Part shown: positions 55,279-58,084 of the stretch, piece by piece
Numbering within the stretch: the stretch's first letter is position 1
How the letters are laid out: each line of letters opens with the position of its first letter
Assembly: GCA_009377525.1 (NCBI GenBank)
Contig: WHTW01000008.1
Location: 430-64,429 of the forward strand
Origin: Rhodospirillales bacterium
Lineage (GTDB): Bacteria > Pseudomonadota > Alphaproteobacteria > Reyranellales > Reyranellaceae
Direction of reading: 5' to 3'
DNA length: 64,000 nucleotides
Notes under the pieces: model-generated
Databases searched by the model: none
The model's input: the letters and a program-made list of their open reading frames with translations, nothing else
What the model was told of the DNA's origin: nothing
Program-made: the position numbers and the translations under genes

Positions 55279-56466
55279 ATGGACGCCGTTTTCGTCGTTG
55301 AATGGCTCAATCTGGTGCTGCGCTGGGCCCACATGATCGTGGGCGTCGCCTGGATCGGCGCCTCCTTCTATTTCATCTGGCTGGACAACCACCTCCATCC
55401 GCCGCTCGATCCGGCCGATGCCGCCAAGGGCATCGGCGGCGAGGTCTGGGCGGTGCATGGTGGCGGCTTCTACACCGCCAAGAAGTTCACCCTCGCCCCC
55501 GAGAAGCTTCCGCCCGAGCTGCACTGGTTCAAGTGGGAGGCTTACACCACCCTGATCACCGGCTTCTTCCTGCTGTGCCTGGTCTTCTACTACGGCGCGG
55601 AAGTGGCGTTGATCGACCCGTCGGTGATGCCCCTCACCAAGGCCGAAGCGATCGCCATCGGGCTCGGCTTCCTGGTGCTGGGCTGGCTGGTCTATGACGG
55701 GCTATGCCGCTCGGCCTTCGGCGAGGACGACGCCATCCTGGGCGGCCTGCTGATGGTCTATTGCGCCGTGTCGGCCTGGGCGCTCTGCCACCTGTTCTCG
55801 GGACGCGGCGCCTACATCCATTTCGGCGCCATGCTGGGCACCATCATGGTGCTGAACGTCTACTACGTGATCATCCCCGGCCAGCGCGAGCTGGTGAAGG
55901 CCAAGGAGGAAGGCCGCACCCCTGATCCCAAGTACGGGCTGATGGGCCGCCAGCGCTCGGTCCACAACACCTATTTCACCCTGCCCGTGCTGTTCACCAT
56001 GATCAGCGGCCACTATGCCGGCCTCTACGGGCACGAGTGGAACTGGGTCCTGCTGTTGCTGATCTCCGCAGGCGGCGCCCTGGTGCGGATATGGTTCGTG
56101 CAGCGCCACAAGGGCAACCAGAACCCCCTGGTCCTGGCAACCGGCCTGGTCGTGCTGGCGATCACCGCCCTCGTCTCCCTGCCCCGGCCCGAGGCCGATA
56201 TCGGCCCGCCCGCCTCCTTCGCCGAGGTCCAGCCGATCTTCAAGGAGCGCTGCCAGTCCTGCCATGCCGCCAAGCCCATGCAGGCAGGCTTTGCCGCCCC
56301 GCCCAAGGGGGTGATCCTGGAGACATCTGAGGAAATCCGGGCCCGGGCCGCGATGATCAACCAGCAAGTGTGGGTCACCCGGGTCATGCCGCCCGGCAAC
56401 CTCACCCACATGACCGACGCCGAGCGACGCATGATTGCGCGCTGGTTCAAGGGCGGCGCAGAATAG
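55279..56466 (+). CDS. puuD: Urate hydroxylase PuuD with C-terminal cytochrome c
   Basis: A 395-aa membrane protein of the PuuD (DUF989) family that oxidises urate to 5-hydroxyisourate. Eight or so hydrophobic helices span residues 1-310, with [38 protein letters not shown] and [21 protein letters not shown] periplasmic cytochrome c domain follows, with heme site C325-x2-C328-H329 (CQSCH) and an axial Met in [11 protein letters not shown]. Electrons from urate thus reach the respiratory chain without producing H2O2. No other purine genes are adjacent. Confidence 0.92.
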
Positions 56467-56471
56467 AGGCC

Positions 56472-56933
56472 ATGATGGCTCGCTCGGGACGGATGCCGTG
56501 GCGGCGCCTGCTGACGGCGGTATTGGCGGCAGTCGCGATCTTTCTCTACTGGACGCACGTCGCCGAGCGCGGACAGCGCGACCTCGTGCGCAGCCCGGCC
56601 GCTACCGACACCAGCATGTCGACGCAATCTCGCGGCTGGGGCGCCAGTGCCGGCTTTGCCGACCAGCGCCGCCTCGACGAGCATTTCGAGAAGCATGGCG
56701 CGGAGTTCGGTCGCATCACCAAGCAGGACTACCTGCGCCAGGCCCAGCTTCTACGCGATGCCAGGGTCGGCGGTCCCGTGCTCGAAGCCGTTCGACGCGA
56801 TGGCGTCGTCACGCGCTACGACCAGCAGACGGGAGCTTTCATCGCCTTCAATGCCAACGGCGTCATCCGCACCTTCTTCAAGCCCAACGACGGCGAGCGC
56901 TACTGGCGCCGCCAGGCGGAGCGCCGGGAATGA
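56472..56933 (+). CDS. Membrane-anchored CdiA-CT-like nuclease toxin
   Basis: A 153-aa protein. A hydrophobic N-terminal segment (LLTAVLAAVAIFLYW, residues ~13-27) is followed by a low-complexity linker. The C-terminal ~85-residue domain contains LDEHFEKHGAEFGRITKQDY, GGPVLEAVRRDGVVTRYD and FNANGVIRTFFKPNDG. This tail resembles the BECR/EndoU-like RNase domains at the C-terminus of contact-dependent inhibition (CdiA) and other polymorphic toxins. Here it is a separate short gene without the large secretion module. The stop overlaps the start of the next gene (ATGA), as for toxin-immunity pairs. Activity and secretion are inferred. Confidence 0.6.
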   Translation: MMARSGRMPWRRLLTAVLAAVAIFLYWTHVAERGQRDLVRSPAATDTSMSTQSRGWGASAGFADQRRLDEHFEKHGAEFGRITKQDYLRQAQLLRDARVGGPVLEAVRRDGVVTRYDQQTGAFIAFNANGVIRTFFKPNDGERYWRRQAERRE

Positions 56934-57307
56934 AACCACCGCCGCCGCCCGGCCCACCCGACGTCGCCGACCTCCGAGAGTTGATCGACCAGTGGGCCGA
57001 ATTCACCAACGACCTGGTCAAGGGCTATAGCTTCGACCTCGACAACTGGCTGAACGACGTCGACGTGCGCGAACTGATCCTCGAGGCGCTGCCGATGTTC
57101 AGCAGCGAGGAGCTGGGCGAGCACGCGCTGAAGCTCGATCAGGCCGACAAGGCCTTCATGTCGGCGACCCGCGACTTCAAGAAGTGCGTATGGGGCAAGG
57201 GTACGTCCCGGAAGGAGAGATGGACGCCACAGAAGAACTGGTGGTACTTCCGCACGCCGCTCAGCTCCAACGGCCAGCTCGAGGACGAGCTGGCGACAAT
57301 TCGCTGA
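56930..57307 (+). CDS. Putative immunity protein for the CdiA-CT-like toxin
   Basis: A 125-aa acidic, soluble, mostly helical protein with a Pro-rich start (PPPPPGPPDVADL), then LIDQWAEFTNDLVKGYSFDLD and VRELILEALPMFSSEEL. A Trp/Lys-rich part (RWTPQKNWWYFRTPL) ends the chain. It has no signal peptide or membrane segment. It is translationally coupled to the nuclease-like gene by a 4-nt overlap, the usual layout for immunity proteins. I do not recognise the family; the role is inferred from position. Confidence 0.5.
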   Translation: MKPPPPPGPPDVADLRELIDQWAEFTNDLVKGYSFDLDNWLNDVDVRELILEALPMFSSEELGEHALKLDQADKAFMSATRDFKKCVWGKGTSRKERWTPQKNWWYFRTPLSSNGQLEDELATIR

Positions 57308-57313
57308 GAGCCG

Positions 57314-58084
57314 ATGAGCCAGCCGAAAATCCTGGTCGAGACCGCGCCGCCGGTCACCACGATCATCATCAATCGTCCGCAGGTGAAGAACGCCCTCGAC
57401 AACGAGGCGGCCCACGCCTTGGCCGCGGCGCTGAAAGCTTTCGAGGCGGACACCGAGGCCCGCGTCGCCGTGCTGACCGGTGTGGGCGGCGCCTTCTGCG
57501 CCGGTGCCGATCTCAAGGAGCTGGGATCGGGCACCGACTACTTTCCGTGGGCCGGCAGCGACGACGGCCCTCTGCGCGCACCGCTTGCCAAGCCGGTGAT
57601 CGCCGCCATCGAGGGCCATGCCTGCGCCGGCGGGCTGGGTGTGGCGCTGTTCTGCGACATCCGCATCGTCGACGAAACGGCGACTTTCGGCGTGTTCTCG
57701 CGCCGCTGGGGCGTGCCGATGAGTGACGGCACGACCGTGCGCCTGCCGCGCATCGTCGGCCAAGGTCGCGCGTTGGACATGCTGCTGACAGGCCGCGCCG
57801 TCGGCGCCGACGAGGCGATCACCATTGGGTTGGCCACCCGCAAGGTGGCGCGTGCCACGACGCGGATGGAGGCCGAAGCGCTTGCCCGCCAGATCGCGGG
57901 CTTCCCGCCGATCGCCATGATATCCGACAGGCAGTCGGCCTACGAAAGCTTCGACCGCGACCAGGCTTCCGCCGTGCGGCGGGAAATGGAATTGTCGCTG
58001 GCGGCGCGGCGGCGGGAATCGCAGAAAGGCGCGGCGCGTTTCGCCAAGGGCGACGGTCGGCACGGCAAGTTCGAGAGGCAGTGA
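57314..58084 (+). CDS. Enoyl-CoA hydratase/isomerase family protein
   Basis: A 256-aa crotonase-fold protein. VTTIIINRPQVKNALDNEAA is the N-terminal strand. The oxyanion-hole segments are GGAFCAGADLKELG and EGHACAGGLGVALFCDIRI. FGVFSRRWGVPMSDGTTVRL lies where the catalytic Glu residues usually are, and here one appears to be Gly/Val, so hydratase activity cannot be assumed. A hydrolase or isomerase is possible. It is closely related in layout to the enoyl-CoA hydratase at 60344. The next gene starts directly after its stop. Confidence 0.85.
   Translation: MSQPKILVETAPPVTTIIINRPQVKNALDNEAAHALAAALKAFEADTEARVAVLTGVGGAFCAGADLKELGSGTDYFPWAGSDDGPLRAPLAKPVIAAIEGHACAGGLGVALFCDIRIVDETATFGVFSRRWGVPMSDGTTVRLPRIVGQGRALDMLLTGRAVGADEAITIGLATRKVARATTRMEAEALARQIAGFPPIAMISDRQSAYESFDRDQASAVRREMELSLAARRRESQKGAARFAKGDGRHGKFERQ

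Follow-up and report, generated by a model that had tools for sequence, protein, structure and literature searches.

What is a colicin-type nuclease domain doing on a protein of only 153 aa, encoded next to a small acidic protein and carried at the end of a single membrane helix? The gene pair that raises this question lies in the window, the whole 64,000-nt stretch of Reyranellaceae DNA analysed here, and the initial annotation had described it as an orphan, membrane-anchored CdiA-CT/EndoU-like nuclease with a coupled immunity gene. Both open reading frames were found where that annotation had placed them, at 56472–56933 (+, 153 aa) and 56930–57307 (+, 125 aa), with a 4-nt ATGA overlap. The features of the locus are as follows.

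55279..56466, +, PuuD-type urate oxidase gene (Urate_ox_N plus cytochrome c), 5 nt upstream of the pair; a neighbour conserved within Reyranellaceae only
56472..56933, +, gene for a predicted exported BECR (colicin-D/CdiA-CT-like) RNase, 153 aa plus stop, with signal-anchor, linker, and RNase domain
56502..56588, +, codons for a predicted membrane helix, residues about 11–39, hydrophobic core 13–31
56589..56651, +, codons of the disordered linker, residues 40–60, pLDDT about 50
56652..56930, +, codons of the RNase domain, residues 61–153, pLDDT about 97
56930..56933, +, ATGA start/stop overlap (translational coupling), four bases common to both genes
56930..57307, +, immunity-like gene, 125 aa plus stop; product acidic, predicted to be mostly helical, without a Pfam or PDB relative
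57314..58084, +, crotonase/enoyl-CoA hydratase family gene, 6 nt downstream of the pair; a neighbour conserved within Reyranellaceae only

The RNase domain and its anchor

We compared the 153-aa protein with solved structures by sequence and by fold. One significant match was obtained by sequence, PDB chain 8EY4_A (phmmer, E = 2e-6), and a profile built from 40 relatives improved this match to E = 1.5e-21. The entry is named 'CDI toxin-immunity complex from E. coli O32:H37', and its chain A is annotated as a PT-VENN protein. In the AF2 model, a helix at residues 10–39 and a linker with a pLDDT of about 50 precede a compact C-terminal domain of 90 residues, which is composed of two helices, four strands, and a last helix. 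In the Foldseek search with this domain, 8EY4 was the best match (TM-score 0.82 on target, rmsd 1.9), the colicin D tRNase structures 1V74, 1TFK, and 5ZNM came next (E about 1e-3, about 15–19% identity), and no EndoU structure was among the matches listed. These results indicate that the domain is a colicin-D-like BECR RNase, nearer to colicin D than to EndoU. The nuclease match that the initial annotation had proposed to look for was therefore found, and of its label the CdiA-CT part stands and the EndoU part does not.

Y87, T134, and Y144 were invariant among the 40 proteins, and H71, K74, H75, and R133 were nearly so. In colicin-D-like CdiA-CTs, catalysis relies on Lys-Tyr-Thr together with His and Arg (PMC9086364). 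The conserved residues of the RNase domain are of the same types and are likely catalytic, and from their conservation we infer that the domain is active. The characterised BECR CdiA toxins are tRNases, with one rRNase excepted (PMC9086364), and by analogy the substrate of the domain is most likely tRNA. Literature searches on 8EY4, O32:H37, and CPCC (a small protein described below) returned no paper giving the exact substrate of the toxin.

Pfam and NCBIfam contained no family for the 153-aa protein, and a profile search of this 7.35 Mb genome found one copy of the RNase domain and no larger protein with it above chance. In PHROGs, the last 95 residues matched the end of the phage portal family phrog_15528 (4e-14). 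Phage records show the same domain at the C-terminus of portal or head proteins, sometimes with an adjacent CPCC gene, and the domain of one uncultured phage was 45% identical over 87 residues. A phage origin of the locus was rejected, since its surroundings are fixed chromosomal metabolic genes across Reyranellaceae.

As the initial annotation had stated, the protein has a single N-terminal hydrophobic segment (Kyte-Doolittle 1.96, residues 13–31), within the helix of the AF2 model. A conserved Arg-rich N-terminus precedes the helix (consensus xxPWRRLLTAALAAVAIF). The N-terminus xxxR....PWRRLLTAALAAVAIF, or a close variant, occurs in nearly all Reyranellaceae toxin orthologues, with basic residues before the segment and a mean hydropathy of 1.3–2.6. 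The lipobox expected of SitAI toxins was found neither in the 153-aa protein nor in its Reyranellaceae orthologues, which have the helix instead, and lipoboxes were restricted to relatives outside the family. Nearly all of the toxin-clade N-termini examined carry a hydrophobic anchor or a lipobox (e.g. VAAC, LTGC, LVGC). In the other phyla, the toxin protein follows the same plan of a short N-terminal helix or lipobox, a Pro/Ala-rich linker, and the domain, as seen in records from Gemmatimonadota, Blastocatellia, Eisenbacteria, Planctomycetaceae, and Aminicenantes. Envelope export, rather than any one anchor type, thus appears to be the recurring feature of the toxin clade. Because of the positive-inside rule and the lipobox relatives, the RNase domain is predicted to lie outside the cytoplasm, and in the 153-aa protein it should be periplasmic.

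The downstream partner

The partner has a pI of 4.8, and the value was ≤5.1 in 28 of 33 homologues; the RNase domain is basic. Its family shares the motifs F-DLDNWLNDVDVR and CVWG...W....NWWYFR.P. Searches of Pfam, NCBIfam, and the PDB with the partner gave nothing significant, a Pfam search with 33 members gave no match except one marginal DUF, and the partner profile found no relative among the solved chains, those of the 8EY4 entry included. The predicted structure is confident (pLDDT 92.9) and mostly helical, and its fold had no PDB match below E = 0.001. A literature search on Reyranella with toxin and immunity returned one paper, which was unrelated. The partner appears to represent an unannotated putative immunity family, without a Pfam entry or a PDB fold match.

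In the 70 Reyranellaceae genomes that hold it, the partner gene is directly downstream of the toxin gene, and the ATGA overlap is kept in 67 of the 74 pairs examined from this family. Toxin and partner distances correlated, with a mirror-tree r of 0.78 for 33 pairs and 0.61 for the 16 pairs outside Reyranellaceae; neither value was reached in 10,000 permutations, and the correlation partly reflects shared genome ancestry. The canonical partner was also present in 24 of 200 genomes of the phylum around a Gemmatimonas record (G469), with the toxin upstream in 19, a toxin remnant in 1, and no toxin nearby in 4. The toxin occurred without this partner at two loci (L179 and L180). A divergent second paralogue group in Gemmatimonadota (L187–L192 and L215–L221; motif VRHEI...TRE.L.ELD...EWYYWR) had no toxin that could be detected next to it, and its members may protect from a different toxin or serve a different purpose.

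The initial annotation had regarded wide occurrence of the partner without the toxin as evidence against the pairing. No such case was found in Reyranellaceae, and the pattern was seen in 5 of the 24 canonical Gemmatimonadota copies and in the toxin-less divergent group. The view of the 125-aa product as an acidic protein of the immunity type is supported by sequence comparison: it is encoded downstream, acidic, co-inherited with the toxin, and kept in some Gemmatimonadota that lack the toxin. It would presumably neutralise the toxin.

Locus, selection, and distribution

The gaps to the flanking genes are 5 and 6 nt, which places the pair in a closely packed run of metabolic genes. Reyranellaceae loci with enough flanking sequence kept the order puuD, RNase, partner, crotonase, with some hundred extra bases between the genes of this run in other genera. 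In view of the short gaps and the family-wide order, the pair is probably co-transcribed with the metabolic genes. The toxin was found in 71 and the partner in 70 of 75 Reyranellaceae genomes, always adjacent where both were seen; in the one genome with a toxin and no partner, the toxin is 38 bases from a contig end, and both genes were absent from the remaining 4. The two reading frames are genes, not chance ORFs, because they have orthologues throughout the family, keep the ATGA overlap, and are under purifying selection. The pair is a near-universal, single-copy, vertically inherited Reyranellaceae locus amid housekeeping genes. In one congener (G418, C30), which has the standard pair as well, a 521-codon frame ends in a further copy of the domain (L095:8504-8749) and is followed by a small Zn-ribbon-like protein.

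We calculated dN/dS over 1,431 within-Reyranellaceae locus pairs, for which large synonymous distances make the values approximate. The medians were 0.126 for the RNase domain, 0.79 for the linker (residues 35–60), 0.32 for the anchor region, and 0.195 for the partner, compared with 0.187 for puuD and 0.125 for the crotonase gene. These values indicate that purifying selection maintains the enzyme domain and the partner. The linker appears nearly unconstrained, as though flexibility were the sole demand on it. No sign of diversifying selection was seen at the pair in the dN/dS values of the Reyranellaceae loci.

Class-wide, a match was obtained in only 11 of 385 genomes, and the matches outside Reyranellaceae were distant. 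The small pair with a membrane anchor or lipobox recurs in Gemmatimonadota and several other phyla. These phyla are known mainly from metagenome-assembled genomes, whose short contigs may be mis-binned; the cross-phylum finding is independent of such contigs, because long ones (e.g. 4.7 Mb, 946 kb, and 272 kb) also carry the pair. The puuD neighbourhood was not found at the loci of other phyla. The description of the pair as an orphan was thus not borne out, since it is a near-universal family locus that recurs elsewhere as a complete short module.

In regards to the distant alphaproteobacterial relatives, some have a plain signal peptide (L088 and L089) and others a lipobox (L090 and L092). 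At L088:8286-8639, L089:6990-7328(-), L091:6928-7410(-), L094, and L095, the domain is followed by a small Cys-rich Zn-ribbon (CPCC) protein. The domains at these loci are in some cases stand-alone, with a signal peptide or anchor, and in others end larger proteins. The CPCC protein corresponds to PF14206 in two of the four tested and replaces the 125-aa partner type. This switch to an unrelated partner is a pattern typical of toxin-immunity systems. Lipoprotein RNase domains with no obvious adjoining partner were observed in small-genome alphaproteobacteria (L090:7615-8130(-) and L092:6899-7417(+)).

Delivery, related systems, and candidate functions

The initial annotation had suggested a link to secretion genes as a check, and none was found at the pair. 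TpsB (PF03865) was absent from this genome and present in 12 of 75 Reyranellaceae genomes, and the T6SS sheath protein VipB/TssC was present in 25 of 75, this genome included, not adjacent to the pair. Compared with the 71 of 75 genomes that have the toxin, these counts indicate that neither is the general delivery route, and the T6SS was rejected as the general carrier on the same counts. Membership in CDI was also rejected. The linked downstream gene of CDI systems is present by position, but TpsB is missing and so is a large TpsA/filamentous haemagglutinin protein; the whole protein is 153 aa, which agrees with the initial statement that a large secretion module is lacking.

In CDI, the CdiA-CT forms the tip of a large TpsA protein, for which CdiB is the exporter. 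The E. coli O32:H37 CdiA-CT/CdiI pair of 8EY4 has the same toxin domain by sequence and fold, together with an immunity protein, whereas the toxin described here has an anchor and a linker only, the genome has no CdiB, and the partner profile matched none of the 8EY4 chains. Colicin D, the tRNase domain of which belongs to the same fold branch, is a large bacteriocin that is released and also has domains for receptor binding and translocation. Barnase-barstar is an exported BECR RNase with a cytosolic inhibitor, and barnase is a freely secreted enzyme not known to share an operon with barstar; no sequence relation to barnase was found, and the 153-aa enzyme is predicted to be membrane-tethered. 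Ribocin (RbcN) of Pseudomonas aeruginosa is similar in being a stand-alone, species-wide, signal-peptide RNase of CdiA-CT-type fold with no secretion module, but its nearest structures are RNase-A-like (CdiA-CT Ykris), it acts on eukaryotic ribosomes, and the parts of the Ribocin report used here describe no immunity partner, in contrast to the partner gene at this locus (PMC13189344). In SitA/SitI of myxobacteria, too, a nuclease toxin attached to the envelope is encoded next to its immunity gene (PMC5562445), a system to which the lipobox members from other phyla can be compared. The conserved N-terminal region of SitA, however, is long (a query of over 400 aa), and SitA is a polymorphic toxin found only in Myxococcales with traAB (PMC5562445), whereas the toxin protein here is about 150 aa in all and its domain is constant. 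The pair is therefore a member of neither the Ribocin nor the SitA system, and it has a CdiA-CT domain without being CDI.

The reading that we favour, at somewhat better than even odds, is a Sec-exported, envelope-tethered antibacterial RNase with a cytosolic immunity protein. Sec would insert the 153-aa protein so that its N-terminus stays cytoplasmic and its RNase domain faces the periplasm, tethered by a flexible linker and a single membrane helix that is not cleaved; in other phyla a lipid anchor would often serve instead. The domain would be an endoribonuclease of the colicin-D-like BECR type and would most likely cut tRNA. The partner, made by coupled translation, would stay in the cytoplasm and bind the basic RNase domain, so that the producer would be safe from unexported toxin or from toxin returning from siblings. 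The most likely role would be interbacterial antagonism, with the enzyme reaching neighbours by release, vesicles, or membrane contact and without a CdiB-type or T6SS machine. Homology to dedicated toxins, the orphan immunity genes, and the CPCC exchange in relatives fit a weapon. Against it stands the fixed, single-copy, vertically inherited locus in housekeeping surroundings, since polymorphic weapons vary and have a patchy distribution; release would be impeded by an inner-membrane anchor, and no secretion gene is linked to the pair. A possible but clearly less probable reading is that the tethered tRNase-like enzyme and its own immunity protein are permanently periplasmic, a Reyranellaceae core trait also found across several phyla, and that no secretion machine fires the enzyme, which would have a resident role in kin control or in policing cells, phage, or conjugative elements that arrive.

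The main rival, considerably less likely than the favoured reading, follows the logic of barnase-barstar: a resident envelope RNase, not a weapon, would digest extracellular or periplasmic RNA, either to scavenge it or to attack RNA that comes in or is released, and the partner would be a safety inhibitor guarding only against unexported precursor. The near-universal, single-copy, fixed locus under purifying selection would suit such an enzyme, as would the anchored or lipidated form, which keeps it with the producer; yet its nearest solved homologues are dedicated antibacterial toxins, and partners without a toxin are expected for immunity against neighbours and less so for a safety inhibitor. 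The neighbour puuD, the product of which degrades urate, an end product of purine breakdown, also points toward a resident enzyme, but the puuD neighbourhood was not found at the loci of other phyla and the purine link is thus not part of the module; a connection with purine metabolism was weakened on this account, the neighbour being Reyranellaceae-specific. It is unlikely that the pair works like a toxin-antitoxin unit within the cell that makes it, during stress or as abortive infection against phage, with a cytoplasmic domain and a membrane segment that serves as tether or sensor. The tight bicistronic coupling would agree with such a unit, and the BECR fold also occurs in RelE-type toxins (PMC11980606). 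However, the positive-inside Arg-rich N-terminus and the lipobox variants argue for a domain outside the cytoplasm, the toxin is the first gene in order, the partner matches no known antitoxin family or DNA-binding domain in Pfam and no PDB fold, and the pair is core and immobile in Reyranellaceae, in contrast to typical type II modules. Least credible is a domesticated, catalytically dead relic kept for RNA binding, envelope structure, or a similar role: fixation of the locus and vertical inheritance would be compatible with it, but the residues that never vary are of the kind an active site would require. A dead toxin would also have no need of an inhibitor, yet the partner accompanies the toxin in 70 of 71 genomes, and the toxin of the remaining genome lies at a contig end.

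According to the usual view, polymorphic toxin domains depend on large delivery proteins, are patchily distributed, and change quickly. Here one of them occurs in a minimal form of anchor, linker, and enzyme with a new putative immunity family, fixed across Reyranellaceae and recurrent in other phyla. If the enzyme is active, the usefulness of a bare, envelope-displayed nuclease would become testable, and the same would hold for its entry into neighbours unaided by a machine and for the turning of weapon domains into resident functions.
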